64,000 bases of DNA from Actinomycetota bacterium. Lineage in GTDB: Bacteria; Actinomycetota; Acidimicrobiia; IMCC26256; PALSA-610. A model generated the notes under the pieces. It ran no database searches. It was not told the origin of the DNA and saw nothing but the letters and a program-made list of their open reading frames with translations. The translations under genes and the position numbers were made by a program. Location: positions 1-64,000 of the forward strand of contig SXHN01000052.1 of assembly GCA_005773635.1 (NCBI GenBank), written 5' to 3'. Below are positions 45,701-64,000 of the stretch, one piece after another; within the stretch, counting starts at the first letter, position 1; each line of letters opens with the position of its first letter.

Positions 45701-46933
45701 GGCGAAGCGCGCCTGCCCACGTACATGATCCCTTCAGCGGTGATTATTCTCGATCAACTTCCGCGAACACCCAATGGCAAGATCGACACGCGCGCCCTTC
45801 CGAAACCACAGTTGTTTACCAGTGGGTCCGCGGCGACCGTCCCGCCCCGCGACGACATCGAACGCCAACTCGCGTCCATGTGGTGCGACGTCCTCCGCAT
45901 CGATTCAGTGGGCATTTTCGAGAGCTTCTTCGACGTCGGCGGGCATTCTTTGCTCGCAGTGCGCCTCTTCGCGCAGATCGAACGACGCTTTGGTGAACGA
46001 CTTCCACTCGCGTCGCTCATCCAGAATCAAACAATCGCGCAACTCAGCGAGCTGTTACGCAACGACCGGGTCGTTGAGTTCGAGACACTGATTGCGCTGC
46101 AACCAACGGGCAGTGGCACACCGATCTTCTTGGTACACGGACCCGTGGGCGAGGGCATTATCTATCTTGACCTTGTGCGTCGACTCGGCGGCGACCAACC
46201 TGCATACGCGTTCCAAGACCGCGGGCTCGATCGCACCCGCGCGCAGTTTTCTTCCATTCCCGCAATGGCTCGTTCCTACGTCGACGAACTACAAAGTGTC
46301 CAACCCCATGGCCCATACGTTGTCGGCGGATTTTGCATGGGCGGAGTTGTCGCATTCGAAATGGCACACCAACTGCGGCTCAGGGGTGAAGAGATCGCGA
46401 CGGTGTTACTGATCGATGCTGCACCGTTGGGACACCTCGCCGGCGGCGAGGTGTACACCACCAAAGGCCGTATCAGAACCCATCTCTCGGAGTTCATCGA
46501 ATTCAAAGGCAAGCAACGTTGGCTGCACGTTTGGGAGACGAGCCGCAACGTCGGTGACCGGTTAACACGCGCGTACTGGTGGAAATTTGTGAAGGCGCGT
46601 TACCTCGATAAAGGCAAACCATTGCCAAAAATTCTCCACGATGTCGAAGCCGTAAATTGGCGCATCGGAACCGACTATGTCGTACCAGAATTTCACGGCC
46701 GGGTTGCGCTACTACGAAAGTCGAACGGTGCCGAATCGTTTCACGAGCGATTTCGGCGTGAGAAATGGGAAGGGCTTGTCGGAGAAACCTTCAAGGTCTA
46801 CGACATCGACAGTCCGGCTGTGAGCCACACGACGCTACTCAAGGAGCCGCACGTGCGCCTCCTGGCCGACGCCGTCCGCGACGCTCTGGACGATGCATTG
46901 GCTCGCGACGTCGCCGACACTCCGATTTCTTGA
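42716..46933 (+). CDS. Single-module nonribosomal peptide synthetase (C-A-T-TE)
   Basis: A 1405-residue NRPS. Condensation domain: HHIAIDGWS with His189, His190 and Asp194. Adenylation domain: YTSGSTGKPKG from residue 667, NTYGPSEAS, LYRTGDIGR, GRADQQIKIRGFRIEPGE and RTPNGKID. Carrier domain: DVGGHSLLA with phosphopantetheine Ser1078. Thioesterase: elbow GGFCMGG with Cys1207 where Ser is usual, Asp1234 (LLIDAAP) and His1371 (VSHTTL). My reading of the eight core pocket residues is D-I-E-D-I-G-T-V, then I. Acidic positions 239 and 278 tentatively suggest a basic or polar amino acid. AAAGGGA lies upstream of ATG. Starting with C, it needs an acyl donor not encoded nearby. The Sfp-type enzyme at 61284 can prime it. 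Confidence 0.93.
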   Translation: MGDDHDPRIASGDDSSTPKVALTAAQRAKLAAKLGVKTRPSAQQPIVRRPDGLDVVPLSHPQELLWLLDQVSGGGWAYNAPEAVRFVGPIDLDALHQAYDALVAHNEILRTTYQLNERDEPMQVIGPPGPAEYQVVDLSELDPTSADARLQLLLRDAAERPFDLAVDPIMRVLVVRLSPLEHVVLSVLHHIAIDGWSRAPFWQQLGELYRRAQSGATLRLDPQPIEYADFALWQRERLEGGLQDAQLAFWRRELEGAPASLDLPTDRARPPVQSFQGAHIHRKFSPDLLQAIRDVGQREGCTLFMTATALFAVFLHKLSGQDDIVIGTPIANRNRTDLESIIGYFANTIALRTPLHGDPTFQEVLTTVRTRAIAALTHQEVPFGKVVIEVSPDRDLSRTPIFQALLVVHTEQAADRVLGEATGERLAFERRWSKFDITLAMGEHSDGLAVGFEYATDLFDTATVERMATQFEQLTRRAVEHPDLRISELVLQSRRDERDMLRLAEGPQSKGYPACLHELFEHSVAAAPEKVAIEFEDRSLTYRELNAVANALAAELVDVGVGPDVPVGICAPRGIEMIVGLIATLKAGGACLPLDPDYPIDRLAHMLADSEASVLISVSATSPHLSHLNIANEIVVDHAWPRLVSAAPDTPPLPITVTEAHLAYLVYTSGSTGKPKGVMLTHRGLVNHARAAIDLYGLNADDRVLQFCSTSFDISIEEIFPTLAAGATIVVRTESMPLGGIGLCDWLRQRAITVLDLPTAFWHEWVGDLQSLAVRPHDALRVVIVGGETANASTFAAWLSIVGDRVRWFNTYGPSEASVIATAYEASRHWDQDSGRELSIGWPINNSVVHILDSARRPAPIGVRGEIYLGGPGVARGYLNQPELTADRFVADPFNLDSGRNLYRTGDIGRRLPDGSIDFVGRADQQIKIRGFRIEPGEIETVLGEHSEVAEVVVVAIDDPTKGKVLVAYATRSSAPAAQDNFGATDDIEHEIRRFGEARLPTYMIPSAVIILDQLPRTPNGKIDTRALPKPQLFTSGSAATVPPRDDIERQLASMWCDVLRIDSVGIFESFFDVGGHSLLAVRLFAQIERRFGERLPLASLIQNQTIAQLSELLRNDRVVEFETLIALQPTGSGTPIFLVHGPVGEGIIYLDLVRRLGGDQPAYAFQDRGLDRTRAQFSSIPAMARSYVDELQSVQPHGPYVVGGFCMGGVVAFEMAHQLRLRGEEIATVLLIDAAPLGHLAGGEVYTTKGRIRTHLSEFIEFKGKQRWLHVWETSRNVGDRLTRAYWWKFVKARYLDKGKPLPKILHDVEAVNWRIGTDYVVPEFHGRVALLRKSNGAESFHERFRREKWEGLVGETFKVYDIDSPAVSHTTLLKEPHVRLLADAVRDALDDALARDVADTPIS

Positions 46934-48268: not shown

Positions 48269-49341
48269 TGAACAAGGCATCTGATCATCCGGTTGAGGTC
48301 GCATGGTTTAGTGCGCTGTGCGATGACGACTACGAGTTTCTGGGCGTGCCCGATCCAGCGCTACGCAGCAGTTGGCGACATTGCGCAGACATCGTCGCCG
48401 AAGCCCGGATACACGGATTCGACAACATCCTGCTCCCCTCCGGCTACGAGCTGGGCATCGACGCAATCGCGTTCGCCGGAGGAATAGCGGCATCGCTTGG
48501 CGCCACGATGCGCATGCTGGTCGCAGTACGAATGGGCGAGATGTGGCCACCGCAGTTGGCGCGCCAAATCGCGACACTCAGCCAAATGTGCGATGGAAAA
48601 TTGACGATCAACATCATTTCGAGCGACTTGCCGGGAGCCACGTTGGCAAGCGAACCTCGATATCGGCGCACGTTGGAAGCGATGATGATTCTGCGAGATC
48701 TGTTGAACAATCGCCCGGTCGACACTCACGGCGAGTTCTTCGATATCACGCTGCGGCCGCCCACCGCTTCCGCCGCGATAGAACGGGCTCCGTTGTTCTA
48801 TTTTGGTGGGCTGTCCGAGGCGGCGCGTGAGGTTGCCGCGCAAGCCGCGGATGTATATCTGATGTGGCCCGAGACCGAAAAGGCGGCGGCTGAACTCATC
48901 ACCGACATGACGGCGCGTGCCGCCGTACATGGGCGCACCTTGAAATTCGGTTTTCGAAGCCACGTCGTAGTGCGCGACACCGAAGCCAACGCACGTCAAG
49001 CCGCCGCGCTACTACTTTCAAAGCTTGATGAGGAACAAGGAAATCGCATTCGCTTGCAGTCACTTGATTCTGGTTCCGTCGGAGTCTCCCGACAGCGCGA
49101 TTTACGAAATGCAAGCGATGACGACGGCTACGTCGAACCGCACCTTTGGACTGGCATCGGTCGAGCCCGATCTGGATGTGGAGCCGCAATCGTCGGCAAC
49201 CCACAACAGGTGCACGCCAAACTGTTGCGGTACCGTGATCTTGGAATCGATTCATTTATTCTCTCGGGCTACCCCCACCTAGATGAATGTCGACGGTTCG
49301 GTTCGATGGTCTTGCCGCTACTGAGCCACAGCCCTCTATGA
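48265..49341 (+). CDS. LLM-class flavin-dependent monooxygenase, SsuD-like
   Basis: A 358-residue bacterial luciferase-like monooxygenase. HGFDNILLPSGYELGID, RMLVAVRMGEMWPPQLARQ and GKLTINIISSDLPG match the alkanesulfonate monooxygenase (SsuD) group, which uses reduced FMN. The C-terminal GNPQQVHAKLLRYRDLGIDSFIL is standard. A flavin reductase is not nearby. Two ATG codons overlap the previous stop; upstream in-frame starts are rejected. Confidence 0.86.
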   Translation: MMNKASDHPVEVAWFSALCDDDYEFLGVPDPALRSSWRHCADIVAEARIHGFDNILLPSGYELGIDAIAFAGGIAASLGATMRMLVAVRMGEMWPPQLARQIATLSQMCDGKLTINIISSDLPGATLASEPRYRRTLEAMMILRDLLNNRPVDTHGEFFDITLRPPTASAAIERAPLFYFGGLSEAAREVAAQAADVYLMWPETEKAAAELITDMTARAAVHGRTLKFGFRSHVVVRDTEANARQAAALLLSKLDEEQGNRIRLQSLDSGSVGVSRQRDLRNASDDDGYVEPHLWTGIGRARSGCGAAIVGNPQQVHAKLLRYRDLGIDSFILSGYPHLDECRRFGSMVLPLLSHSPL

Positions 49342-50201
49342 CACCAGCGCAACGCAGACAGTTGATTGGCAAGTCACTCGGGGCGGCAGTCGTGCTCTAT
49401 GGAGTGTTCATAGGCACTCGTTGGGGCCAGCGTGCCGACAGCGCCGCCAAGGTCTACGCACAGGTACACCGATACACGCCTCGGTTGCGGAGTCGCGGAC
49501 TTCCTCCGCTTCGAGATATCAGCCTCGTCATTCCACTCGTAGCAACCGCGATCACTTTGGTGTTGTTAGCCATGCAACCGCGGACCCAGAGGTGGCGGGC
49601 CGTCGTCGCGGTCGCCGCCGTGGTCATTCCCGGGGTCATGATTTGCCAGGCGTTGAAGGTCGTGCTGCCATACCCCGCTCTCACGAAATACCCTGACTGG
49701 ATCGGAAGCTCCACGTTTCCCAGCGGGCACACCGCATTTGTCAGTGGCCTCGCGTTGAGCTGCTACGGGCTGATGCCTCGACGGATGCGCTTTTACGGGA
49801 GCTATCTCAGCGCCGTAATGGTTTTCGCGATCACGGTAGGGGTCGTGGTCGACGGGCGTCATCGCCCAAGCGAAACCGCGTCCGCAGTTGCGGTTGTAGT
49901 GGCCTGGTACCTCAGCATCAGCCCATTCGTCACAGTTATGGCCCGTTCGCCAGGTGCACACCGCAGCCCAACGTTTCGGGTTTCTGGATACGCGGCAGGT
50001 GCCTGCAGCCTGGGCCTCGCGGCGTCGGTCAGACTCGACGATTTCCCCCCGGCGGTCGCTTCAGTCGATCGAGCGTTCGCTGCAGCGGTGCTCTTGGCAG
50101 CATCGACATCGCTGTTGTTCCACGATCTCATCACGGTGTACTTCAGCGATCGCGACCTCCGTTGGACGCGGCGAATTGCCGAAAGCACGACGGCTTTGTG
50201 A
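49338..50201 (+). CDS. PAP2-family membrane phosphatase
   Basis: A 287-residue membrane protein with about seven hydrophobic segments. The second phosphatase motif is FPSGHTAF and the third VDGRHRPSET; the first (KxxxxxxRP) is reduced to KVVLPYP. It may dephosphorylate undecaprenyl-diphosphate or another lipid phosphate, which would connect it to glycan assembly. Its ATG overlaps the previous stop. It is convergent with the APH-like gene 37 bases away. Confidence 0.78.
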   Translation: MTPAQRRQLIGKSLGAAVVLYGVFIGTRWGQRADSAAKVYAQVHRYTPRLRSRGLPPLRDISLVIPLVATAITLVLLAMQPRTQRWRAVVAVAAVVIPGVMICQALKVVLPYPALTKYPDWIGSSTFPSGHTAFVSGLALSCYGLMPRRMRFYGSYLSAVMVFAITVGVVVDGRHRPSETASAVAVVVAWYLSISPFVTVMARSPGAHRSPTFRVSGYAAGACSLGLAASVRLDDFPPAVASVDRAFAAAVLLAASTSLLFHDLITVYFSDRDLRWTRRIAESTTAL

Positions 50202-50238: not shown

Positions 50239-51132
50239 TCAACGACGGACCGGCGCGCCAAGCAGCGTGGCGAGCAAACGATCATCAAGTTCGGGATCGG
50301 TTTGTGAAGACAAACGATGCGTGAGAAATTCGCGCCAAAACTCGCGCGATTCCTCATCGATCGCATGCGACAACGGTTGGCCCTTCAGCGTGGCAGTGGC
50401 GACCATCCAGAAGACCGCGTCGCCAGACGGCGGGCCGTATCGAGCATCTTCGTAATCAAACAATGTGTGTGAACCAAACCAAAGTCGGCGCAGGTTCCAT
50501 GGCGCGAAATCGCCATGCATCGGTACCCAGTGCGCAGGCCCAACTCGCGGCAACACATCTGCAAGACTGAGTTGCAGCCACTCCAGAATTGGAGCGACGT
50601 TGCCCCAAAACGGTCGATGCGGGCGGGGCGGCAGTGCCGACATCGCTGTGAATTGCAATCCGTGGGCCGTACCGCCTACGAGTAATCGAGGAACGATGAC
50701 AGGAGCTCGTTTTGCGTTCGACAACTCCGTGAGACAGCGTTGTTCAACCCCGAACGAAACGGCGCTCGACTCACCCGCGATCTTGCAGAACGTAATAGGT
50801 GAACCATCGCGAAACGCCAGAATTAGGTGCGCACCACGATGATCTTGGCGTCGAGACAGCAATGCAAAGGCGTCAAGGCCCCCGACGACGTCTGCCACCA
50901 CATCAAGGACGCCGCGCACCGCGACAGGAAGGTCGAGCGCCTGGCGCTTGCCCGGAATGAGATGCGACCCTGTGGTTCTTGCGACACACCAAGCAAGATG
51001 ATGCGCTGCAACTGCGCTAGCTCGACAGGACATTGCCGTAGCTACTGCACCCGCTGCGCCGCGCCCGACCGATGTTGGAATCAAGAGGCGGCGATTCAGT
51101 GGATACGGAACCACTCGCCCCGCTACTCCCAT
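50239..51132 (-). CDS. Aminoglycoside phosphotransferase (APH)-like kinase
   Basis: A 297-residue protein-kinase-fold phosphotransferase. The catalytic loop is VPMHGDFAPWNLRR (HGD....N), and the metal-binding Asp is in LFDYEDARYG, matching APH and choline-kinase enzymes. The N-lobe Lys may be that in ITFCKIAG. The frame extends to 51237, but ATG 51132 overlaps the sulfotransferase stop by about ten bases and is preferred. As third gene after the giant surface protein, it may phosphorylate a sugar or small precursor of the same system; resistance is less likely. Confidence 0.78.
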   Translation of the reverse strand: MGVAGRVVPYPLNRRLLIPTSVGRGAAGAVATAMSCRASAVAAHHLAWCVARTTGSHLIPGKRQALDLPVAVRGVLDVVADVVGGLDAFALLSRRQDHRGAHLILAFRDGSPITFCKIAGESSAVSFGVEQRCLTELSNAKRAPVIVPRLLVGGTAHGLQFTAMSALPPRPHRPFWGNVAPILEWLQLSLADVLPRVGPAHWVPMHGDFAPWNLRRLWFGSHTLFDYEDARYGPPSGDAVFWMVATATLKGQPLSHAIDEESREFWREFLTHRLSSQTDPELDDRLLATLLGAPVRR

Positions 51133-52031
51133 CCGATTCCAACTTCTCGTTCGAGGTGAGCCATATCGGGCGCAAAACGATCGACCAATTGCGCGCGGAT
51201 GGCATCCGCGACCGCTGACTTGGGAGCGGCGTTCCACGGCTCGACATTGGTCAAATTCTGCTGTTCGATGTCCAGGAACGAAGTCACTTGATCAAAAACA
51301 AGCTGGGTCGTCTGATAGAAGTCTTCGCTACGCAGTATGAGTACGGCATCACGACCGTACAGACCCAGCCAACGCTGCAACGAAGGCCAGTAGTGACTCT
51401 GCGCCGCATACGACTGCTGTTCGTGAGGAAACGACCTACCGATCTCGCCAGCAAGGAGCCGCTGTTGGTCGTCGCCTACACGATGTTGTTCAGCTGCAAG
51501 CGCCGCTTCGAACGACAACGTCTCGACTCCGTTCCGGGTCTGTTCACTCCAGTGAGAGAACGTCCGCTCCACGGGCTCGCGCAGCATCACGATGATCTTT
51601 GCGCGGGGAAGTAACTCACTCGCTCGTTGCGCGGCGAGGGGATGGAACAAGTAATACGGCGAGGCCTCTCCAGCGAGTTGAGCGTGGCGCCGCCGTGCAG
51701 ACGATGTCAGGAAATGCCCCTGATACCACGAAGGTCCATGGTGATAGTTCGAATCGAAATAATGAACCCCCTTTTGATTTTCGCGCATCATCGGAAGACG
51801 CGAGGTTGGGAACAGCGGCGCGATCTGGCGGTGAGTCTCGAGGTATCGAAACAGTGATGTTGACCCACTGCGCTTCGTACCGACGATCAGAAAATCAGGA
51901 AGTGGCCGCCAGCGAGCGGTCACAGTGCCGAACCCTTGCACCGCGGCCCGACCGTAACGGCGGACCTGCGTGGCGACGCGCGGAACCAGGACCTTGCTGG
52001 CGCTGTGTGATGATTGTGCTTGCGCGACCAC
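51123..52031 (-). CDS. PAPS-dependent sulfotransferase
   Basis: A 302-residue cytosolic sulfotransferase of the heparan-sulfate/carbohydrate type. The 5'-phosphosulfate loop is IVGTKRSGSTSLFRYL, the 3'-phosphate site LREPVERTFSHW. YFDSNYHHGPSWY matches the substrate region of the Stf0/NDST type. The GTG start follows the giant gene's stop by five bases, so they share an mRNA. Acceptor unknown: a glycan, lipid or the surface protein's sugar chains. Confidence 0.86.
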   Translation of the reverse strand: MVAQAQSSHSASKVLVPRVATQVRRYGRAAVQGFGTVTARWRPLPDFLIVGTKRSGSTSLFRYLETHRQIAPLFPTSRLPMMRENQKGVHYFDSNYHHGPSWYQGHFLTSSARRRHAQLAGEASPYYLFHPLAAQRASELLPRAKIIVMLREPVERTFSHWSEQTRNGVETLSFEAALAAEQHRVGDDQQRLLAGEIGRSFPHEQQSYAAQSHYWPSLQRWLGLYGRDAVLILRSEDFYQTTQLVFDQVTSFLDIEQQNLTNVEPWNAAPKSAVADAIRAQLVDRFAPDMAHLEREVGIGWE

Positions 52032-52036
52032 TGCGC

Positions 52037-55000
52037 TCAGGTTACGGTCACCGATTGGGCCAAGACCGTCTTGACGCCGAGATTGTCAGTGACCGTCAAT
52101 GTCACACTTCTGGGTCCTGGCACCAGGTACACATGGCTTGAGGTCACACCCGTCGTCACTGTCCCGTCGCCCCATACCCATTCGTAGCTCACGATCGAAT
52201 CGTCGTCGATGGACCCACTTGCATCGACGTTGCAGGTCAACGCGCCAGCGCAGTCGGCAGTGAAGGCCGCGACTGGAGGCAAGTTTGCGGGTCGAACTGC
52301 GAAGTCATCGAACGAGAACACCAACGGATAACTCTGGTTCGCGGAATAGCCCTGCAGACCCGCAACGCCAGCTACTTGCAGCGACGCGGTGCTGTCGGTG
52401 ACGCTCACCAACCACGAAGAAGGTTCACTGGTGCCATCCATCCAGACCTTGATGCGAATCGTGGTCGGATTCGTACCACTCACATTCATGCGCACTCGAT
52501 AGACCGCGTTCACGGTTGCCGAAAGCCCGGTGCTGACTTCGCTACCAATCACTTGTGCAGCGCCGCCGGCCTGTCTGTAGGCGGCCGCGTGAACCGAGGC
52601 ACTCGAGAATCGAATACGAGCCCGATATTCCTGACTCGTTGCGATATATCGGCCCGAGATGCTGGCCCACGAGCCTGCGCCCGTCTGGGCCACATTGAAA
52701 CTGACCTTGGTTTGCACGTCGAGGTCGGTACCCGAAACCGTCGCCAAACGCGCCGCAAGGTTCGTACCACTCGATGGGATGGTCATCTTCGCAGAACCGC
52801 CATTGACGCCGAAATTGCTCGCCGTACCGGGGGTCGTCCAAACACCGCCAAGATCTGAAGTACCCCAACCGCTGGTCGTCGTTCGACTAAACGCATCCGA
52901 AGCGAACAGTGTCGGGCTCACCGCAGGGGCAACCACGATGAGCGCCGAGACTGTCGTAGATGCACCGTCGTCATCGACGACGGTGAGTGTTACTGGCCAT
53001 TCGCCAGCAAGCGCGTAGGTGTGGTTGGTCGTGACGCCAGTGGCGGTGCCACCATCGCCCAACGTCCACACATACGACACGATTGTGCCGTCAGGGTCAC
53101 CCGATGCGGCAGCATCGAACGTACATGACAGCAGCGTGCAGTTCGGGGGAAAGGCAGCTACTGGCGGAGCGTTGACAGAAACCGTCAGGGAAGTGCTGTC
53201 GGTGCCACCCAGATCATCGGTGACAGTGAGCGTAACTAGATAGCTCCCACCAGTTGCGTACGCGTGGCTAGCCGACGCGGTCGTCGAAGTTGCTCCGTCA
53301 CCGAAGTCCCAGAGGTATCCAACTACTACCCCATCGGCGTCGGCGGACGTCGCAGCGTCAACATCGCACGTCAACGCAGCGCATACTTCGCTGAAGCTCG
53401 CTGTGGGCGCTACGTTCGCGATTGCATTCGCGGTGAAGCTGTCTGTGGCCCCAACGTCATCTGTGACCGTAAGCGTCACAACGTACAAGCCCGCAGCCGC
53501 GTAGGTGTGCGTTGGAGCGACACCAGCAGCGTTCTGCGCGTCGCCGAGGTCCCAGTCGTAAGTCACAATCGAACCACCGGGGTCGACAGATGTAGCTGCG
53601 TCGAAGTCGCACAGGTACTCACTACACGAAACCGTAAATGCTGCCGTTGGCGCACTGTTCACAACCACATCATGGAGTGTGGTGTTGGTTCCACCCAGAT
53701 CATCGGTAATCGTGAACGCGACCGAATACGTGCCCGCTGCAGCGTAAACATGATTGGGTTGGGCACCCGTGCCGCTCGCCGATGCGTCTCCGAAATCCCA
53801 GGCGTACGAAGCGATGATGCCGTCGGTGTCCGTCGACGCCGAGCCGTCGAAATCACAGGAAAGCTCTGTGCACACCTCGCCAAATGAAGCAGCTGGAGCA
53901 ACATTCGCGACCGCGGCACTCACCTCATCATCGGTCGCGCTCTGGTCGTCGGTGACCGTGAGCGTCACGACATACGAACCCGCCGCTGCATAGGTGTGCG
54001 TTGGAGATACGCCGGTGTCGAATTGTCCGTCTCCAAAATCCCACGAATACGATTGAATCGTGCCATCGATGTCACTCGATGCCGACGCGTCGAATTGACA
54101 ATCGTAGTTCGCGCATACGGAGGTAAAGCTTGCAACTGGAGGAGTGTTCACTTGCACTGAGACAGTTTCGGTATCGGTGAGACCCAGAGCGTCGGTGACG
54201 GTCAGGAGTACGTCGAAGGTTCCCGATGTCGCGAAGGTGTGCTGTGCCGTGACACCGACAGCCGATCCGCCGTCGCTGAACGCCCACTCGTACGAGGCAA
54301 TGCTTCCTTCGGGGTCACTCGATGATGAAGCATCAAAGTCGCACAGCAACGAAGTGCAATTGTGTATGAATGCTGCAACCGGTGGACCATTCACGACGGC
54401 TACGCGAGTGGTCACCGACGCAAGGCCGGTGTTGTCGACAACGGTAAGCGTCACGGTATAGGTACCGGGCGCAGAGTAGATGTGTGCCGGGTTGACTCCG
54501 ATGCCAGTCCCACCGTCGCCGAAGCTCCAGATATACGACGCGATCGCGACGTCGTCACTCGATGCAGCGGCATCGTTGTCACAGGTCATCGCGGTGCAAC
54601 TCACCACAAACGACGCCACCGGAGCGGTATTTGCTGGTCCGACTACAAAATCGTCGAAGCTAAAGATCACCGGCGCAACAGTTCCGGCGTCGTAACTGCT
54701 GAGCCCAACCGCTCCAGCCCCTTGAATCGACGCGGTCGAATCGGTTCGAACCAAGAGCCATGCCGCGGGCTCCGAAGTGCCATCGACCCACACCTTGGCG
54801 CGGATAGTCGTGGGGTTCACACCGACCGCCTGCGCGCGAACTCGGTAAAACTGATTCGGCACGTACGCGAGACCCGTGCTGATTTCGGCACCGATCAATG
54901 TACTGTTACTTGATCCAGCCAGCTTCGCCGCGGCCAAGAACACCCCGCTCGAGTTTGTCTTGACGCGCACACGATATTCCTGATTCGTGGCAACTTTGCG

Positions 55001-58000
55001 CACCGTTACATTCGACCAATGTCCCGATCCCGTTGCCGCTTTGTCTGCTGCGATCCGCACTCGAACATCAAGGTCATTTCCAACCAAACCGTTGAGAGCG
55101 CTCGCCATCCCGCTGCCGATGGTGGGCGTGCGCTGGGTACCGACAGTTCCATTGACGTTGAAATTGTTCGCCGTACCAGTGTTCGTCCACGTGCCACCAG
55201 AATTGGCATTACCCCATTGTGATGACAGCGTTCGGGTGAAGTCGTCGTTACCGGTAACAAAGGTTGGCAGAACCGGCGCGACGACAGCGAACCGCTGGAT
55301 CGAAGTTGGTTCTCCATCGTCGTCAACGAGGGTGAGCGTAACTGGCCAGGTACCGGCGATGCTGTAAGAGTGCGACGCCACCGCCGTCGTCGCCGACGTT
55401 CCGTCGCCGAATGTCCATAGGTATGTACTGATCACACCGTCGGGATCGAAGGAACCAACGGAGTCATAATTGCACGACATTGCAGTGCAGGTAACAGTTG
55501 CTTGTGCGGTGGGACCGACATTCGGTCCAACAACTGCGATCGACTGGGTTTCGGCATCCGCACCGCCTCGATCATCGATGACAGTCAATTGAACATCGAA
55601 GCTGTTAGTGAAGCCGAAAGTGTGCGTCGCCGTGGGACCGGTCGCGGTGTTTCCGTCACCGAAATCCCATGCATAGCTCTGAATTACACCATCACTGTCG
55701 GTCGATCCTGAACCGTCGAACGAACAAGTCAGTAAGACGCAGCTGTAGCCGTAGGTGCTGGTCGGCAATGCGTTCGGGCCCAACACGGTAATGGTTTGGG
55801 AATCGGCATCTTGTGCCGCGTCGTCATCGGTCACGTTCAACACGATGCTGTAGATGTCGGGGCCTGCGAACGTATGCACCACGCTCACACCGGTACCACC
55901 AAGTCCGTCGCCAAAATCCCAGTCGTAGTTTGTGAGCGAGCCATCTGGATCAACGGACCCAGAACCATCGAACGTGCATGTGAGATCCACGCAATCGCTG
56001 GTGAACGAAGCAGTCGGTGCCTCGTTGACTACGTCAAGACTCTGTGATTCGGTGTCGGTTGCGCCGTAGTTATCCGTGACCGTCAGCACTGGCTGATACG
56101 TCCCGAACGCACTGCCATAGTCGTGCGACGCAGTCAAACCAGTTCCGTTCGAGCCGTCGCCGTAGTCCCACGAATACGTCTGAATGGTGCCATCAGAATC
56201 CGTCGATGCCGCCGCGTTGAATGAACACGTGCTGTTCACGCACGACGCCGAATACGCAGCAGTTGGGGCGGTATTCACAACCTGCATCCGGTAATTGTCG
56301 AGAGTCGTGGTCACCGGAGCATTCGTGGCGCTACCGCTGAGATACGTACGCACACCGTGCGCACCAGCCACTTGCAGTTCGGGCTGGCTGTCCATAGCAA
56401 CGATCCCCCACGCGCCCGGCTCGGCCGTGCCGGTTGTCCACGCCTTCGCCTCGAGCGTGGTCGGATTCGTGCCGGTGACTCGAAGACGTGTCGTAAATAG
56501 TCGCCCGGTTGCATAGGTGGCGCCCGCAACATTTATTTCTGAGCCAATTTGCACTTCGGTCGAGGAATTGACGACCTTTGCGAGCGACAGCTTCACACCG
56601 CCGCCTGGAGGAAACCGCAGGCGCAAACGGTATTCGAGGGTGGTTCCTTGCCGGCGCGCAGTCAGGCCAGCGACCTCGCCGTACGTTCCACCGGTTGGCG
56701 CCTTGTTGGTGGAGATGTCAACCACTGTGTCGCTGTCCATCACAAGGGTGCTCGGCAAATACGCAATACGCGCCGCGCCAGCCGTCGCAGAAATGATCCG
56801 ACCGGTGCCGCTGCCGACGCTGTAATCAGCAGGGGCAGAACTCAGAGTCCATGGGCCACCGATATCGGCGCTCCCCCATGCATTCGTCGTGGTTCGACCA
56901 AACGCGTCAAAGCCGAGTGTGCCGAGCGGCAAAACAGTGACAGTGAATTGCGAACTAGTTTGTGCGGTTGCACCGTTGCCGTCATCAACGACGAGGTTCA
57001 CCGTGTAGGTACCGGAAGCAGCGAACGAGTGCGTCGTGGTGACACCCGAGCCAGTCGTTGAATCCCCGAAATCCCATGCGTAGCTCTCAATCGGCGCATC
57101 CGGGTCAGTCGAGGCGGACGCGTCGAAGGTACACAGCTGAAACGCACACGAACCGGAGAAACTTGCGGTCGGAGCGAGATTGACCGAGGTCGCGGTGGCG
57201 TAGACCGAACCAGTGGCCGCGTCATTGTCGGTCACTGTCAACGCGACCGTGAAGTCGCCTCCAACGGAGTAGGTATGAACCGCCGTCGGCCCGCTTGCCG
57301 TTTGACCGTCGCCGAAGTCCCAGGAATACTGAACGATGTACCCGTCAGGGTCGCCAGAACCTGTCGACCCAAACGTGCACGTAAGATGTGAGCACGATAC
57401 TGACATCACGGCGCTCGGGGCTACGTTGCCGGGGTCTGGTAGCGGAATCGCGACGTTGCGAGAAAACTCACTCGTACTTCCACTCGGGTTCGTCGTGGTC
57501 GCCGTGACCGGCGAGCCCTGCGCAAATGCGGGCACCGGCAAGCGTGCGAATCCTGAACTGTTCGCGACGCCAGTTGTGATGTAGGTAATCCCAGACCCAA
57601 ACTGGCTCGCTGGGCGGTCGGCGACGAACAGTTCAATGGTGCAACTCCCGCACGTCTGGGCGTCGACTGAAGCAGACGTGGCGTTGGAAAGAGTCGGCCC
57701 GACAATTGCCTCGTTCACATCGGGATCGGCGTTGCCGGAATTGTTCACGACCCCGAGCGGGGCCAAATCAATTCCAAGCGCCGCAGTCGACCCAACGCCG
57801 TTGTCGTGAATCGAGTTTTGCGTAATGGTGTTGAAATTCGTGGGTGAAATAACTGAGCTCGGTGGGCTCGCTCCAGTTGGAATTATCTGGATGCCACTAT
57901 CGTTATGCGCCACTTCGTTTTGGCTGATAACGGTGTCGAACGCCCCAGCCTCGACGCGGATGCCGGAGAACCCGTTGCCAATGTCGTTGCCCGATGGGCT

Positions 58001-59782
58001 GATGCCCACATCATTGCCTTGGACGGTCGAGTGGTGGGTGCCTTTATCGATCCAGATGCCAGCGTCGCTGGCGTTGCCAATGACGTTGTCGATCACCGAT
58101 TGGTACGAAATATCTGGATCGCATGCTGTTGAGCAGAATGGATTGCCCTCAAGGCGTACGCCCACCTGACCATGAGCAGTCGCCGCACTGATCGACTCGC
58201 CGTCGAGCGAGGTCCCGATGAAATTGCCAACGACTTGATTGAACATCGTGCCGACGCCGTGAGAAATCTCGACGCCGTTGCCCAGGTTGCCTGAGATGAC
58301 GTTGCGTTCGCCCGGCGCAGAACCGCCAATCAAGGTATAGCTCGACCACGTGTTGATATCGATGCCGTGTGACTTTGCGCCGCGCCTCAACAATCCAGTT
58401 GGATCAAGCCCAACAATGTTGTTCTGAATGACGTTGTAATCAGTGTCGTTGTCGTATGTCGCGACGTTTTGGTGCGGGCAACCTGAAATCACGTTGCGAT
58501 TAGCGACACCGGGTACGCCAACGTTGTTGTGATGTGCACCACCCTGTATGACAACGCACGTCTTGGAAGCAATGGTCGTGACCAAAGGATCGGTCGCGCC
58601 GTTGGGCAACAAACCAATCAAAGAGCCGACAATGGTGTTGTGATGCGCGTCTGCGCCCAAAAACCAGATGGACCGTCCGAAACTATGAATATTCAGGCCG
58701 CGAAACGTGAAGTTGGACCCGGTGACCAAGAAGGCATCGAACGCTGAGGGGCCTTGGCCTGCTATTTCGATGCCGTAGTCCGCGTTCGAAGCAAGTGCGT
58801 CAGTATTTGGCGATGAGCCCGGTTGCGAGAATCCATCGATGAGCACCGATGTCACTGAGTTCGTGAGCGTCGGGTAGCGACTTGCCGGCGTTAACGTCTT
58901 CAGGCCACCCCCTGGAATATCGAACTGGATCTCTACAGGAAAGGTGCTGAGATTCGCTTCTTGAATGGCACCCCGAAGCGAACATCCTCCGCCGCTGATC
59001 GCGCAAACACCGTTGCCAACATTCGAGTCGGTCGCATCGCTGGTGGTGTTGACGACGAAGCTGACTGTCGGACCAGACATCGATTGCGCGCTCGGCGGGC
59101 CAGCCTCGGTCGCAGCCTGTTGTACATCGGCTATTGATACACAGTCGGTCCCGTCACAACTCCCGGCTTCCGTCGCCAGCGTCCACTCCGCTTGGGCGGC
59201 ACCGGCGCTAACGCTCGCTTCCAGAGGCAACGCTGCTTTCGGCGCTTCGGATCGCACCGCCACCGGCGCAGGGTGCCGCGTGCGACTACTCCCTACGGTG
59301 ATCGATGACTCAACCTCAACCGAGGCAGGAATGACGCGCCCGTTTCGGTCAACCAACACTACGTCGCGGAGTTGCAATTCGAAATTGCCAAGTGCGCGTG
59401 GAGAGAGCACTACATCGGTCACTAATTCCGAGACTGGCGCGCCGCGCTCGGCGTAGAACCCCGTCGTGAGGCCTTCGGCGTGCTCTATCGTCGTGAGGGC
59501 AACGCGATCACTCGGGGATTGCACGCCGTCAAAAGCCAGACCGCCACGGTCGTAGGCCAATGTGAACTGGGCGCCAGCTACATATTCACCGTTGCTGATC
59601 ACTACTTTTGCGTGGATAAGGGAGCCACGCATAATCGCCCCCGGCATTTCGATGGAAACACTTGGTGCGCCGGCACTGCTGGCTTGCTGCGGTGTAGCGG
59701 CGATGAATCCGCCGAGACCCAGCGCAGCCGCACCGATGAAAGCGACCGCGCGGCGACCAACCGGATGTCCCATATTCCCCAT
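52037..59782 (-). CDS. Giant secreted modular protein (cohesin-like, CSLREA/beta-helix, 14 PKD, 3 LamG-like)
   Basis: A 2581-residue protein. Layout by approximate residues: signal peptide 1-38; cohesin-like beta-sandwich 41-180; CSLREA segment (CSLRGAIQEAN) about 255-275; right-handed beta-helix 280-720 (repeated GNVIG/NTIVGS-type turns); short linker 720-785; then PKD domains with three LamG/laminin-like modules at about 953-1165, 1507-1715 and 2293-2498. The order is 2 PKD, L, 4 PKD, L, 7 PKD, L, 1 PKD. Nearly every PKD has WDFGDG-like core and a Cys pair (C-4 or 5 residues-C). It ends after the last PKD with no sorting signal or membrane anchor. ATG 59782 is chosen because the -35/-10 promoter lies inside the longer frame to 59953; ATG 59773 is possible. 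A role in adhesion or matrix is inferred. Confidence 0.88.
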   Translation of the reverse strand: MGNMGHPVGRRAVAFIGAAALGLGGFIAATPQQASSAGAPSVSIEMPGAIMRGSLIHAKVVISNGEYVAGAQFTLAYDRGGLAFDGVQSPSDRVALTTIEHAEGLTTGFYAERGAPVSELVTDVVLSPRALGNFELQLRDVVLVDRNGRVIPASVEVESSITVGSSRTRHPAPVAVRSEAPKAALPLEASVSAGAAQAEWTLATEAGSCDGTDCVSIADVQQAATEAGPPSAQSMSGPTVSFVVNTTSDATDSNVGNGVCAISGGGCSLRGAIQEANLSTFPVEIQFDIPGGGLKTLTPASRYPTLTNSVTSVLIDGFSQPGSSPNTDALASNADYGIEIAGQGPSAFDAFLVTGSNFTFRGLNIHSFGRSIWFLGADAHHNTIVGSLIGLLPNGATDPLVTTIASKTCVVIQGGAHHNNVGVPGVANRNVISGCPHQNVATYDNDTDYNVIQNNIVGLDPTGLLRRGAKSHGIDINTWSSYTLIGGSAPGERNVISGNLGNGVEISHGVGTMFNQVVGNFIGTSLDGESISAATAHGQVGVRLEGNPFCSTACDPDISYQSVIDNVIGNASDAGIWIDKGTHHSTVQGNDVGISPSGNDIGNGFSGIRVEAGAFDTVISQNEVAHNDSGIQIIPTGASPPSSVISPTNFNTITQNSIHDNGVGSTAALGIDLAPLGVVNNSGNADPDVNEAIVGPTLSNATSASVDAQTCGSCTIELFVADRPASQFGSGITYITTGVANSSGFARLPVPAFAQGSPVTATTTNPSGSTSEFSRNVAIPLPDPGNVAPSAVMSVSCSHLTCTFGSTGSGDPDGYIVQYSWDFGDGQTASGPTAVHTYSVGGDFTVALTVTDNDAATGSVYATATSVNLAPTASFSGSCAFQLCTFDASASTDPDAPIESYAWDFGDSTTGSGVTTTHSFAASGTYTVNLVVDDGNGATAQTSSQFTVTVLPLGTLGFDAFGRTTTNAWGSADIGGPWTLSSAPADYSVGSGTGRIISATAGAARIAYLPSTLVMDSDTVVDISTNKAPTGGTYGEVAGLTARRQGTTLEYRLRLRFPPGGGVKLSLAKVVNSSTEVQIGSEINVAGATYATGRLFTTRLRVTGTNPTTLEAKAWTTGTAEPGAWGIVAMDSQPELQVAGAHGVRTYLSGSATNAPVTTTLDNYRMQVVNTAPTAAYSASCVNSTCSFNAAASTDSDGTIQTYSWDYGDGSNGTGLTASHDYGSAFGTYQPVLTVTDNYGATDTESQSLDVVNEAPTASFTSDCVDLTCTFDGSGSVDPDGSLTNYDWDFGDGLGGTGVSVVHTFAGPDIYSIVLNVTDDDAAQDADSQTITVLGPNALPTSTYGYSCVLLTCSFDGSGSTDSDGVIQSYAWDFGDGNTATGPTATHTFGFTNSFDVQLTVIDDRGGADAETQSIAVVGPNVGPTAQATVTCTAMSCNYDSVGSFDPDGVISTYLWTFGDGTSATTAVASHSYSIAGTWPVTLTLVDDDGEPTSIQRFAVVAPVLPTFVTGNDDFTRTLSSQWGNANSGGTWTNTGTANNFNVNGTVGTQRTPTIGSGMASALNGLVGNDLDVRVRIAADKAATGSGHWSNVTVRKVATNQEYRVRVKTNSSGVFLAAAKLAGSSNSTLIGAEISTGLAYVPNQFYRVRAQAVGVNPTTIRAKVWVDGTSEPAAWLLVRTDSTASIQGAGAVGLSSYDAGTVAPVIFSFDDFVVGPANTAPVASFVVSCTAMTCDNDAAASSDDVAIASYIWSFGDGGTGIGVNPAHIYSAPGTYTVTLTVVDNTGLASVTTRVAVVNGPPVAAFIHNCTSLLCDFDASSSSDPEGSIASYEWAFSDGGSAVGVTAQHTFATSGTFDVLLTVTDALGLTDTETVSVQVNTPPVASFTSVCANYDCQFDASASSDIDGTIQSYSWDFGDGQFDTGVSPTHTYAAAGSYVVTLTVTDDQSATDDEVSAAVANVAPAASFGEVCTELSCDFDGSASTDTDGIIASYAWDFGDASASGTGAQPNHVYAAAGTYSVAFTITDDLGGTNTTLHDVVVNSAPTAAFTVSCSEYLCDFDAATSVDPGGSIVTYDWDLGDAQNAAGVAPTHTYAAAGLYVVTLTVTDDVGATDSFTANAIANVAPTASFSEVCAALTCDVDAATSADADGVVVGYLWDFGDGATSTTASASHAYATGGSYLVTLTVTDDLGGTDSTSLTVSVNAPPVAAFPPNCTLLSCTFDAAASGDPDGTIVSYVWTLGDGGTATGVTTNHTYALAGEWPVTLTVVDDDGASTTVSALIVVAPAVSPTLFASDAFSRTTTSGWGTSDLGGVWTTPGTASNFGVNGGSAKMTIPSSGTNLAARLATVSGTDLDVQTKVSFNVAQTGAGSWASISGRYIATSQEYRARIRFSSASVHAAAYRQAGGAAQVIGSEVSTGLSATVNAVYRVRMNVSGTNPTTIRIKVWMDGTSEPSSWLVSVTDSTASLQVAGVAGLQGYSANQSYPLVFSFDDFAVRPANLPPVAAFTADCAGALTCNVDASGSIDDDSIVSYEWVWGDGTVTTGVTSSHVYLVPGPRSVTLTVTDNLGVKTVLAQSVTVT
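52130..57430 (-). repeat. Array of 14 PKD repeats and three LamG-like modules within the giant gene
   Basis: Each PKD unit is about 80-85 codons with the landmarks PxA-F at the start, Cys-x4/5-Cys, D(S/P)DG, the WDFGDG-like strand, H-x-Y and VTLTVTDD. The three LamG-like units (near 56290-56925, 54640-55262 and 52290-52905) share a start pattern (F-R-T-x3-W-G-x2-D-x-G-G-W), TNPTT and a dense FDDF end. Units are diverged, so this is an old protein-level amplification and not a recent DNA duplication. Confidence 0.85.
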
Positions 59783-59924: not shown

Positions 59925-59953
59925 AGTATGGCCCATGCCAGGGCCCGATTCAA
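59925..59953 (-). promoter_or_regulatory. Promoter of the giant surface-protein gene
   Basis: On the minus strand TTGAAT (59953-59948) is followed after exactly 17 bases by CATACT (59930-59925). Both match the vegetative sigma factor consensus reasonably, and the spacer is ideal. Transcription should begin near 59918, giving a leader of about 135 nt before the ATG at 59782. Confidence 0.6.
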
Positions 59954-60194
59954 GCCGAAACTGCGATTTCGGTGACACTCTCTTCCTCGGTAAGAATTCG
60001 TTCAAGTTGCAACGCGTATCCATCGATGATGTGCGTGCCAGACATGCCGAGCGACCGACGCTTCTCAATGCTCGAAACCATGGTTGCGTGCCTGATTCGA
60101 TACCGTTGCTGCTACCCCTGCGCCCAAAGCGTGTACGGGCACGCAGCTACCACGGTGGTCTGCCGATATGAGGGCACAACGTTGGGAGACTTCG
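59954..60194. other. Divergent spacer between the giant gene and the TauD-like gene
   Basis: No gene is visible. It contains a perfect 10-bp palindrome AACCATGGTT (60076-60085) and a GCGTGCC/GGCACGC inverted repeat (60086-60092 with 60138-60144), possible operator sites for either gene. A ribosome-binding site (GGGAG, 60184-60188) precedes the GTG at 60195. Confidence 0.4.
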
Positions 60195-61268
60195 GTGACA
60201 AGTAATGACTCATTTCACATAAGCCCAACCCCGAGACCAACCGCCATGCGCGGTCGGCGTCGGCCCATCGCCGCAGATGGGCCTGCATCGCTGGTCTCAA
60301 CCTCAACCCTCGGCAATGAATCGACCCTGCCGCTTGTCGTGCGACCGGCCACCGCAGGCGTCGATCTCGCAGCTTGGGCAGAGACAAACCGCGAGCAGTT
60401 CGAAGCCTGGCTCGTCGAATATGGCGCTGTCCTATTGCGAGGGTTTGGTCTCGTCACACCACCGCAATTCGAGGCAGTTGTGAGTGCTCTGGTTCCTGAC
60501 CTCTTCGGCGATTATGGCGATCTCCCGAAGGAGGAAAGCGGTCAACGGATCTACCACTCGACTCCATATCCGAACGATATGGCGATCTTGTTCCACAACG
60601 AGAGTTCTCATCTCCCTTCGTGGCCCACCCGCCAATTCTTTTTTTGCGTCCAACCGTCGCCTGTCGGTGGCAATACTCCCCTGCTCGACTGCGAACTCGT
60701 GATGCACCGAATTAACCCCGAATTCGTGGAGCGGCTGGCCACCAAGAAACTCTGCTACGTCCGTAATTTCGTGCCCGGTATCGATGTGAGTTGGCAGGAC
60801 TTTTTCAAAACCGAAGACCGCGATCGAGTCGAGCATCAATGCGCGGCGGAGGGTATGACCTGCGAATGGCTCGGAGAGGTGCTGCGGGTCAAGAACCGCA
60901 CTGAGGCAATTCGCACCCACCCCCAACGACACACGCAGGTATTTTTCAATCAGGTGCAGCTGCATCATTCGAGTTGTCTCGACGTCTCGACGCGTGCTGC
61001 GCTACTCGACCTCTGCGGATCGGAGATCGCGATGCCACGCAACGTGCTCTACGGTGACGAATCTCCCATAGCCGATGAAGACATGCAGCACCTCAACGAA
61101 GTTTTTTTCGAAAACTGCATACAATTCGCATGGGAGGCAGGAGACATCATCGCGGTCGACAACATGCGGGCATCACATGCGCGATTGCCCTTTGAGGGGG
61201 CGAGAAAAATTACGGTGGCGATGGGTCGCATGGCGTCGCACGACGAGTTTCAATCTGCGACTCCGTGA
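60195..61268 (+). CDS. TauD/TfdA-family (SyrP-like) Fe(II)/2-oxoglutarate dioxygenase
   Basis: A 357-residue oxygenase. The iron ligands are His and Glu in FHNESSH and the distal His in RASHARLPFEG; the 2-oxoglutarate Arg is probably in ARKITVAMGR. Glu replacing Asp in the HxD motif is common in the SyrP-like subgroup that hydroxylates carrier-bound amino acids in NRPS pathways. GTG 60195 has GGGAG six bases upstream and is preferred to ATG 60168. It is followed 15 bases on by the phosphopantetheinyl transferase, which supports a secondary-metabolism role. Confidence 0.82.
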   Translation: MTSNDSFHISPTPRPTAMRGRRRPIAADGPASLVSTSTLGNESTLPLVVRPATAGVDLAAWAETNREQFEAWLVEYGAVLLRGFGLVTPPQFEAVVSALVPDLFGDYGDLPKEESGQRIYHSTPYPNDMAILFHNESSHLPSWPTRQFFFCVQPSPVGGNTPLLDCELVMHRINPEFVERLATKKLCYVRNFVPGIDVSWQDFFKTEDRDRVEHQCAAEGMTCEWLGEVLRVKNRTEAIRTHPQRHTQVFFNQVQLHHSSCLDVSTRAALLDLCGSEIAMPRNVLYGDESPIADEDMQHLNEVFFENCIQFAWEAGDIIAVDNMRASHARLPFEGARKITVAMGRMASHDEFQSATP

Positions 61269-61283
61269 CAGATCTGTGGCGCT

Positions 61284-62012
61284 ATGACTCCCTTTTCTCT
61301 TCCCGGCTGCGCGCAACTCGATGCACGCCAACCAACCGCCGTGACGATTGAGGTCGTTCACTTCGATCTCAACGACTCGTCGCATGACCAATTCCTGTCA
61401 GGTCTCAGCGCGGACGAACGCGCCCGCGCATCTCGTTACAAATTCGACCGCGATCGAATCCGCTACACCCGCGGCCGAGGCGTTCTGCGTGACATCCTCG
61501 CGAAACGGGTAGGAATTGCCGCCGACGAAATCGCACTTGGCTACGGACCGAAGGACAAGCCATTCCTCGCCAATGGGCACCTGCATTTCAACGTCGCTCA
61601 TAGTGAGAATGTCGCTGTAGTAGCGATATCTCACCGAGAGCTCGGTATCGACGTCGAGCTCCTGCGGGAAGGATTCGCCGACGACACGATTGCTGAGAGG
61701 TTCTTCGCACCAACGGAAGTTCAACAATTACGCGCCCTGCCTGTGTCCGACCAGGAACCCGCGTTTTTTCGGTGCTGGACACGCAAAGAGGCGTACCTCA
61801 AGGCAATCGGCGATGGCCTATCGATTCCCTTGGATGATTTCACTGTGGAGTTCGCCAGCACTCGCCAACCAAGCATTACCTGGATCCGCAACCGACCTGA
61901 CGAGCCCCAACGATGGACGGTCATCGACTGTTCAGAACAGCTGAACTGCAACGCAACCGCGGCAATTGCGATTCGCGATTCGATCCCAACTGTGCAGTTC
62001 AGTCGGCGCTGA
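61284..62012 (+). CDS. Sfp-type 4'-phosphopantetheinyl transferase
   Basis: A 242-residue pseudodimeric transferase that loads phosphopantetheine onto carrier proteins. Motifs: FNVAHSENVAV, the Mg-binding GIDVE and WTRKEAYLKA, all expected for the Sfp group rather than AcpS. The natural partner in this window is Ser1078 of the NRPS at 42716. Its 3' end overlaps the convergent ABC ATPase gene by 14 bases. It shares an operon with the TauD-like oxygenase. Confidence 0.92.
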   Translation: MTPFSLPGCAQLDARQPTAVTIEVVHFDLNDSSHDQFLSGLSADERARASRYKFDRDRIRYTRGRGVLRDILAKRVGIAADEIALGYGPKDKPFLANGHLHFNVAHSENVAVVAISHRELGIDVELLREGFADDTIAERFFAPTEVQQLRALPVSDQEPAFFRCWTRKEAYLKAIGDGLSIPLDDFTVEFASTRQPSITWIRNRPDEPQRWTVIDCSEQLNCNATAAIAIRDSIPTVQFSRR

Positions 62013-63183
62013 ACTCCCAGGTGTTCTTGACTTGTACTGGCGACAGCCGCACAACCGAGCGAGGCGTGCTTTCCACGTTGGGTCCGCTCACGTCGAATGC
62101 CTTCGCGGGATGCCATTTCACGAGATCGTGCGCACGAGTTGCCTCGTGAATCGCCGTCCAGAGAAAAAAACGACCGCGAGGTAATGGCAGATGTTCAAAC
62201 GTGCACAGCACACTGTTCGAACCGCTTGACAACTTTGCTGACCCCTGCGCCACGAAAATCGGGGTTGCGGGGCCCTCGCTCACGCCCATATACACAACGC
62301 AGCCTCGTGCAATGTCAGAATCAACAGCCAACTCGACAGTCATACTGCCGTAACTTTGGACCCCATTACCTGCTGTCCCAGTCACTGTCGTTGAAGTAAC
62401 GCGAACTGGGCCAGTTTGATCAGAGCCAACCTCGGCAGAGTGTTCGATCCATTCACGATAACTACCGAGCACTTCGCGAATCGGAGAATCTTCAACCAAC
62501 ATGCCATCACGCAGCCACAGACCTCGTGTGCATGTCGCTTCCATCGTCGCCAGGTCGTGGCTGACAAACAGCAACGTGGTGCCGTCAGCCTGCACTTGGC
62601 GCATCCGCTCAAGACAACGCTGTTGAAACGTCGAATCGCCGACCGCCAACACCTCATCGACAAGCAAAACCGCAGGCTCCAAGAAAGCAGCAACCGCGAA
62701 CCCCAACCGTAATTGCATTCCGGTCGAATAAAATTTGACTTGGCGATCGATAGCTGATTCGATTTGCGCGAACTCAACGATCTGATCGAAAACTTGTGCA
62801 ACGCGCTTACGTTTCAGTCCGAGCAGTGTGCCGTAGAGGAAAATGTTTTCTCGTCCAGTGAGGTCGGAGTGCAGCCCAGCGCGCACCTCAATCAGCGCGC
62901 CGATTCGACCGCCGACATGTACGTTCCCGGCGCTGGGATACATCACGCCGGCGATCATTTTGAGCATCGTCGATTTGCCAGCACCGTTCGAACCGATGAG
63001 CCCGACTGACTCACCCGGTTCAATCTTGAAATCGACATCGCGTAAGGCCCACCGATAGTTGTTGCTGGTGTCACCTCGTAGACGGTCTCGCAAGAATTCG
63101 ATTCGGTCAATGAGAAACGGATTCCGCAGATCGGCCCGAAACCGCTTCCAGACTCGATCGATATTCAGGGCGCCTGTAAGCAC
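61999..63183 (-). CDS. wzt: ABC transporter ATPase, second Wzt-type
   Basis: A 394-residue polysaccharide-export ATPase. Walker A GSNGAGKST, signature YSTGMQLRL, Walker B VLLVDEV, H-loop VSHDLA. Residues after about 245 form a second domain of beta strands, diverged from the one at 8289, so a different chain end is probably recognised. The GTG at 63183 has AGGGG five bases upstream and lies just after the permease stop; an ATG at 63267 would overlap the permease by 53 bases. Confidence 0.85.
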   Translation of the reverse strand: MLTGALNIDRVWKRFRADLRNPFLIDRIEFLRDRLRGDTSNNYRWALRDVDFKIEPGESVGLIGSNGAGKSTMLKMIAGVMYPSAGNVHVGGRIGALIEVRAGLHSDLTGRENIFLYGTLLGLKRKRVAQVFDQIVEFAQIESAIDRQVKFYSTGMQLRLGFAVAAFLEPAVLLVDEVLAVGDSTFQQRCLERMRQVQADGTTLLFVSHDLATMEATCTRGLWLRDGMLVEDSPIREVLGSYREWIEHSAEVGSDQTGPVRVTSTTVTGTAGNGVQSYGSMTVELAVDSDIARGCVVYMGVSEGPATPIFVAQGSAKLSSGSNSVLCTFEHLPLPRGRFFLWTAIHEATRAHDLVKWHPAKAFDVSGPNVESTPRSVVRLSPVQVKNTWEFSAD

Positions 63184-63214
63184 GCCGCCCCTAGCAGCAA
63201 TAATGTCATCGGCT

Positions 63215-64000
63215 CTAGAGGAGATCGGCAAAGCTCGACTCCAATCGCTTGAATACCTTGAAGCCAACGAAAAACACCACGACGGCCGAAACCGATGCGT
63301 AGCCCAAGAGCGCGAGGTCAGGCGCCAAGCCTTTCAACGCGGTGCGACGGATACTGTCGATGACTGGCCCGATCGGATTCGCTATCGAGTAAACGATCTG
63401 CCACTTCCGCTCCAGCCCGTCAAGCGACCAAATCACCGGTGTCGCGACCAGACCCATCTGGATGATCACAGGCAACACGTGGCGGATATCGCGCAGATGC
63501 ACAACCATCGACGAGATCAAAAGCACGACACCCATCGTGAACACGATTTCAATCAGAATCAGCGGGACGACCCACGCGAGCACGAGCGCGTGGGGCATTG
63601 TCGTCTTCGCCGCGAACAGCACGACTACCGCAACCATTGATGTCAATGTGTCAACGGCAGATACGCCCACAATCGAAAGCGGGAACACCTCTCTTGGGCA
63701 GTTGATCTTGTTGATGAGTTGCAGATTGGACAACAGCGAAAGGCCGCCTTGACCTACTGCCGAGGCAAAAAAGGTCCACGGCAGCAACCCACAGATCGCG
63801 AACAACGCGTACTCCGGGTAATGCGTCTCAACATTGGCAACCTTGCTGAGGAATATCGTCAGGGTAAAGATCAGTACGACCGGCTGCAGGAGCGCCCAAG
63901 CAACGCCGAGAATCGCCTGTTTGTAGCGAACGCGTAGCTCCCGTTCTGTGAGGGTCGTGACCATTTCCCAGGCGGCAAATGTGGATTTCAGCGCGCCAAG
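63215..64000 (-). CDS. wzm: ABC-2 type permease, second Wzm-like, 5' end outside window
   Basis: The visible 261 residues include the coupling motif LTERELRVRYKQAILGVAW and six hydrophobic segments. The frame stays open through to base 64000 (residues LGALKSTFAAWEM before the internal ATG), so the real start lies beyond the window and the ATG at 63964 is probably internal. Paired with the ATPase above, it forms a second surface-polymer exporter. Confidence 0.87.
   Translation of the reverse strand, partial: LGALKSTFAAWEMVTTLTERELRVRYKQAILGVAWALLQPVVLIFTLTIFLSKVANVETHYPEYALFAICGLLPWTFFASAVGQGGLSLLSNLQLINKINCPREVFPLSIVGVSAVDTLTSMVAVVVLFAAKTTMPHALVLAWVVPLILIEIVFTMGVVLLISSMVVHLRDIRHVLPVIIQMGLVATPVIWSLDGLERKWQIVYSIANPIGPVIDSIRRTALKGLAPDLALLGYASVSAVVVFFVGFKVFKRLESSFADLL

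Follow-up and report, generated by a model that had tools for sequence, protein, structure and literature searches.

A giant secreted protein, a sulfotransferase and a kinase in a conserved predicted operon of Acidimicrobiia, with a probable role in sulfated exopolysaccharide synthesis

Why should a giant secreted protein be encoded head to tail, on one strand, with a sulfotransferase (ST) and a phosphotransferase-like kinase, and on what would these two enzymes act? The question arises from a 64,000-nt stretch of an Acidimicrobiia genome (hereafter, the window; contig SXHN01000052.1), for which a sequence-only reading had proposed a dedicated machine that sulfates and phosphorylates glycans on, or bound by, the giant. 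It touches on a broader one, as sulfated polysaccharides were long held to be nearly confined to cyanobacteria among bacteria, until a 2026 mutant study of Actinoplanes suggested otherwise. Our comparisons make it fairly probable that the giant, the ST, and the kinase form an operon of a sulfated exopolysaccharide (EPS) locus, in which the ST and the kinase would act on the repeat unit and the giant would serve as matrix.

The gene trio and its products

The giant gene runs from an ATG at 59782 to 52037 on the minus strand (2581 aa) and is followed, on the same strand, by the ST gene (52031, GTG, to 51123; 302 aa) and the gene for a kinase of the APH/fructosamine-kinase fold (51132, ATG, to 50239; 297 aa). 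These coordinates agree with the tight junctions described earlier: 5 nt separate the giant's stop from the ST start, and the first 10 nt of the kinase gene lie within the end of the ST gene. The longest open reading frame of the giant begins further upstream, at a TTG at 59953, and a signal-peptide-like segment, GRRAVAFIGAAALGLGGFIAATPQQASSAGA, lies immediately after the ATG at 59782. Scanning the giant-ST and ST-kinase junctions returned no consensus promoter and no consensus terminator; two weak matches, one promoter-like and within the kinase gene, the other terminator-like, were at the level of shuffled sequence. Within the family of the source genome (14 genomes), the trio recurs in the same order, with equally tight junctions, in a genome of the same genus (G001; giant, ST, and kinase at 57, 57, and 47% identity) and in one of another genus (G003; ~50, 56, and 39%). 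Because this order is kept at 39-57% identity, the linkage goes beyond chance, and the trio is a conserved operon as predicted from gene order and spacing. In G003, a second sulfotransferase gene (Sulfotransfer_3; L022 14033-14965, G003:C90) directly follows the kinase, which looks like the gain of an additional sulfation step by the operon.

The giant is acidic (237 D+E vs 84 K+R), shows no C-terminal anchor, and contains 14 PKD stretches (Pfam PF18911, E 7e-247). For the putative beta-helix once assigned to it, the one supporting match is an N-terminal CSLREA signature (58952..59059, minus strand; TIGR04214, 28.5 bits against a cut-off of 25), which is typical of CSLREA beta-helix surface proteins; none of the Pfam beta-helix models, PF13229 included, matched the protein. 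Self-comparison revealed three overlooked LamG/CBM66-like domains of ~205 aa (56294..56917, 54650..55252, and 52304..52906, all on the minus strand). The second was modeled by AlphaFold (pLDDT 90) as a beta-sandwich whose top Foldseek match is the CBM66 of Bacillus subtilis (4b1m; TM-score 0.71 on the target), although sequence identity is only ~16%; other concanavalin-like carbohydrate-binding folds also match the model, and the domain sequence had no significant match in the PDB. As modeled, the LamG-like domains have a CBM66-like fold, with sugar binding putative. As a marker of the system, the domain was rejected, being present in unrelated giants and among phage-tail-like genes. A second LamG-like giant of the same genome (2012 aa; G000:C93 8875-14913, L109) lies outside any EPS locus, and ~1250-aa proteins bearing the domain occur amid phage-tail-like genes in large Actinomycetes genomes (L119 9124-12885; L120 9408-13277).

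The ST scored above the Pfam cut-offs for Sulfotransfer_1/3 (PF00685/PF13469; 44.7 and 44.4 bits, E 1e-11) and keeps the 5' and 3' PAPS-binding motifs (K53-R54, R151, S159). Its closest solved structures are 3rnl and the heparan-sulfate enzymes NDST1/3-OST, the latter being the best characterized of its solved relatives (E 1e-25 to 1e-18). Lys614 of the NDST1 PAPS site aligns with K53, and the 3' motif matches too, but the position of Glu642, the catalytic residue of NDST1, is occupied in the ST by Gly88, invariant in all 23 family members compared. The ST thus lacks the Glu of the NDST/3-OST catalytic type, and its general base must be another residue. The kinase, which scored 28.4 bits against Pfam APH (PF01636; cut-off 23.2), retains the Brenner motif HGDxxxxN (H206-G207-D208, N213), the metal-binding Asp (D226), and the ATP-site Lys and Glu (K117, E130), all invariant in 22-23 of the 23 loci compared. 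Its Foldseek matches include FN3K and APH(2''), with a capreomycin phosphotransferase at rank 20; the TM-scores were low (0.4-0.5) and the sequence matches weak, and the kinase carries an extra N-terminal helical segment. For neither enzyme was a signal peptide or a clear transmembrane segment predicted.

The ST-kinase pair across Actinomycetota

The linkage had been thought rare, and the kinase itself at first appeared so (3 matches to the first profile in 396 genomes of the phylum), an impression rejected as a sensitivity artefact; with a broader profile, divergent kinases adjoin most STs. A class-level search found the kinase in 18 of 375 Actinomycetes genomes, and, among the carriers examined, an ST lies within ~0.3 kb in all but one (G907). 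From the ST side, a kinase-family gene was found next door in G534, G590, G034, G036, G033, G011, and G013, within 3 kb in G015, and within 10 kb in G012, while the ST flanks fetched from G454, G580, G002, G004, G005, and G006 and around a second ST of the source genome held no kinase. The last kinase profile was iterated, with drift possible, and adjacency played no part in the search. The gap within the pair is below 0.3 kb in most loci, and the ST and kinase distance matrices from 23 loci correlate at r=0.97 (0/5000 permutations), a correlation that in part reflects common descent and that vertical descent alone can yield.

The neighborhoods of the pair are mostly those of EPS synthesis. 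In four Actinomadura species matched by a kinase search of genome contigs (kinase ~33%, ST ~45% identity to the window proteins), Wzx, Wzy, and glycosyltransferases (GTs) lie within ~20 kb of the ST and the kinase, together with a secreted protein that has the LamG-like domain at its C-terminus (37-44%) and a separate right-handed beta-helix protein. By homology, the A. litoris, A. macra, and A. terrae loci also hold ATP-sulfurylase/APS-kinase and TauE permease genes, the former tested with Pfam in A. litoris and A. macra and the latter in A. litoris. Another member of the Acidimicrobiia (G169) has the kinase and the ST (50% identity) inside an EPS cluster, and the Bac_transf, WecG, epimerase, Wzz, Wzx, and Wzy genes of this cluster have homologues at 64-75 kb of the window contig. 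Similar pairs occur in the EPS loci of further Acidimicrobiia families and of Actinomycetes, many of the latter adding ATP-sulfurylase/APS kinase, TauE, and WecG and Wzz/Wzy, and G884 presents a single run, Wzz-Wzy-kinase-ST-Wzx, in an order frequent in other loci. Judged by gene content, the pair belongs to Wzx/Wzy EPS loci as a module that is widespread and spans at least two actinobacterial classes. Hence, recurrence in distant genomes, the test that the earlier reading had set for its linkage, was observed, and the supposed rarity gave way to a pair that is widespread in actinobacterial EPS loci.

The window contig carries such a locus. It begins beside the trio with a Wzt-like ABC transporter ATPase (61999..63267, minus strand) and a Wzm-like ABC-2 permease (63215..64000, minus strand, extending past the window to contig position 64069) and reaches position 74995; the stretch from 64243 to 74995 (L020) encodes Bac_transf, GT4, WecG, an epimerase, Wzz, Wzx (assigned by homology), two GTs, and Wzy. 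The Wzx/Wzy/Wzz/GT genes lie 10-23 kb from the trio and have homologues that surround the pair of Actinomadura and of G169. The pair in the window genome appears to have been moved ~10 kb out of the EPS cluster to a place behind the giant, a history that we infer from this comparison. For PAPS supply, an APS kinase is encoded in the same genome (G000:C16).

The giant is the less constant partner. About two thirds of the loci also encode a secreted PKD, LamG, or propeller protein. A large secreted PKD/LamG/fn3/propeller protein is present in the source genome (G000), G001, G003, G011, G012, G169, G505, G584, G015, G534, G806, G880, G615, G618, G844, and the four Actinomadura; none was seen in nine Actinomycetes loci (G868, G650, G716, G828, G723, G891, G784, G884, and G732). 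Partner architecture varies as well, the window giant having a CSLREA-type N-terminus, whereas that of the Actinomadura protein is a propeller, the beta-helix there being a separate protein. Given the nine loci without a giant, this varied domain make-up, and the LamG-like giant elsewhere in the source genome, the giant is, as far as gene content indicates, a recurrent but dispensable or exchangeable partner of the pair. In G505, the kinase gene is interrupted by the ends of two contigs, C92 and C73 (L055 and L056 ends), which overlap each other; this locus probably has a propeller protein, the kinase, and a second-type sulfotransferase in succession.

A probable sulfated exopolysaccharide and competing readings

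On what, then, would the enzymes act? Without a signal peptide or a clear transmembrane segment, and in need of cytoplasmic PAPS and ATP, the ST and the kinase are predicted to work in the cytoplasm, where the step within reach is the lipid-linked EPS repeat unit before its flip by Wzx, which we regard as the likelier substrate. Specifically, the ST would move sulfate from PAPS onto a sugar of the undecaprenyl-linked repeat unit, and the kinase would phosphorylate a sugar of that unit, with chain ends and free precursor sugars as less likely targets. The unit, specified by the genes at contig 64-75 kb, would then be flipped by Wzx and polymerized by Wzy, and the Sec-exported giant, better read as a polysaccharide-associated matrix protein, would bind and space the anionic polymer outside the cell via its CBM66-like and PKD domains. 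Most likely, the trio would thereby build and organize a sulfated surface slime.

Several observations argue for this reading: the trio order kept in three genomes of two genera; the closely spaced pairs in EPS loci elsewhere; the sulfate-activation and TauE genes in those loci, along with the APS kinase of the source genome; the correlated ST and kinase distances and the kinship of the ST to polysaccharide sulfotransferases; the homology between the nearby EPS genes and the neighbors of the pair in Actinomadura and G169; and the CBM66-like domains that the giant has in common with Actinomadura EPS-locus proteins. The earlier expectation of a carbohydrate sulfotransferase and a phosphotransferase working on glycans is in keeping with the ST relatives, the kinase fold, and the sulfate-activation genes. 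Against the EPS reading, the window pair lies outside the Wzx/Wzy block, with TauD and PPTase genes between them and an NRPS on the other side; the invariant Gly at the catalytic Glu position of NDST1 implies that catalysis would have to differ; and LamG-like giants also occur outside EPS loci, as does the paralogue in the source genome. Sulfation of the polymers from these loci is predicted from their genes.

The EPS reading has a counterpart in wps-1 of Actinoplanes missouriensis, a Wzx/Wzy/Wzz EPS cluster in which consecutive genes encode WpsG (Wzx), WpsH (a heparan-sulfate-type ST), WpsI (protein-kinase-like), WpsJ (Wzy), and WpsK (Wzz), and in which wpsH and wpsI nulls form squashed sporangia, as do the Wzx, Wzy, and Wzz nulls (PMC13390465). 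Its sulfated polysaccharide was deduced by the authors from genes and mutant phenotypes, without demonstration (Tezuka & Ohnishi 2026, PMC13390465). The G-H-I-J-K order, Wzx-ST-kinase-Wzy-Wzz, is identical to that of Actinomycetes loci such as G884. Unlike in the window, no giant PKD/CBM protein is described for wps-1, and the window pair lies apart from the Wzx/Wzy block, behind the giant; homology between WpsI and the window kinase rests on position and fold class. The xss (synechan) locus of Synechocystis PCC 6803 is likewise a Wzx/Wzy EPS locus bearing sulfotransferases, and its sulfated EPS was chemically shown, but it is cyanobacterial, its two STs belong to other subfamilies, and the excerpted report describes no APH-like kinase or PKD giant (PMC8205485). 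Beyond these systems, the locus comparison indicates a pair widespread in actinobacterial EPS loci and draws attention to an unassigned kinase step and to a part for secreted PKD/LamG proteins as partners in the matrix, all of which makes sulfated EPS a testable matter in culturable Actinomadura and Actinoplanes strains.

The flanks of the trio raise an alternative that we consider unlikely, in which the ST and the kinase tailor or detoxify the product of an adjacent NRPS cluster, with the giant as an unrelated passenger. Some antibiotic clusters use sulfotransferases and APH-type self-resistance kinases, and the capreomycin phosphotransferase is among the folds matched by the kinase. Genes for an NRPS, a TauD-like oxygenase, a PPTase, and a luciferase-like monooxygenase flank the trio (window 42716-46933 and 60168-62012), and the same NRPS-type flanks, conserved in genus and family, are found in G001 (G001:C4 47394-50762 and 64074-79998). 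Since NRPS and TauD genes adjoin the trio in all three family members (G000, G001, and G003), the enzymes could act on the NRPS product. Among the other families covered, however, the pair stands beside EPS genes, with no NRPS homologue seen next to it; the ST is nearest to heparan-sulfate-type enzymes; and the recurrent partners are sulfate-activation genes and Wzx/Wzy/Wzz. The flanking NRPS genes probably serve a separate peptide pathway.

Two further possibilities concern the giant more directly. One, speculative and rather unlikely, is a bacterial counterpart of the proteoglycan matrix, in which a giant, a heparan-sulfate-type ST, and a sugar kinase on one transcript would allow the protein and a sulfated, phosphorylated glycan to be made in step and to assemble covalently or via the CBM66-like domains. 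The other is the dedicated machine of the sequence-only reading, with the giant or its attached glycans as substrate, which now looks improbable. The tight translational coupling seen for the trio in three genomes and the recurrence of PKD/LamG giants near ST-kinase pairs would suit it, but the enzymes are predicted to be cytoplasmic and the giant is exported, about nine loci have the pair without a giant, and the operon holds no protein-glycosylation gene.

Quite improbable, too, is a WbdD-like role, in which the kinase would cap the non-reducing polysaccharide end with phosphate before Wzm/Wzt export (61999-64069) and the ST would act on the same chain. A Wzm/Wzt pair adjoins the trio in both G000 and G001, and the WbdD kinase domain gave a profile match to the kinase, but the match is marginal and partial (E ~0.001 over 95 positions), APH(8) scores higher, and most loci with the pair have Wzx/Wzy, with no Wzm/Wzt detected. 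Finally, although LamG-like giants are found in many contexts, it is highly improbable that three unrelated genes were merely stacked by genome compaction, given the same order and tight junctions in three genomes at 39-57% identity and ST-kinase adjacency across many families, which already refutes chance for that pair.

Other genes in the window with possible polysaccharide roles

Convergent with the kinase gene lies a gene for a PAP2-like membrane protein (window 49287-50201; below the Pfam cut-off), which has ~30% homologues at the equivalent place in G001 and G003 and is possibly related to undecaprenyl pyrophosphate. Another polysaccharide locus is suggested at the left end of the window (8289-10375), where a GT2 gene accompanies a second transporter of the Wzm/Wzt type, which has a Wzt_C domain.
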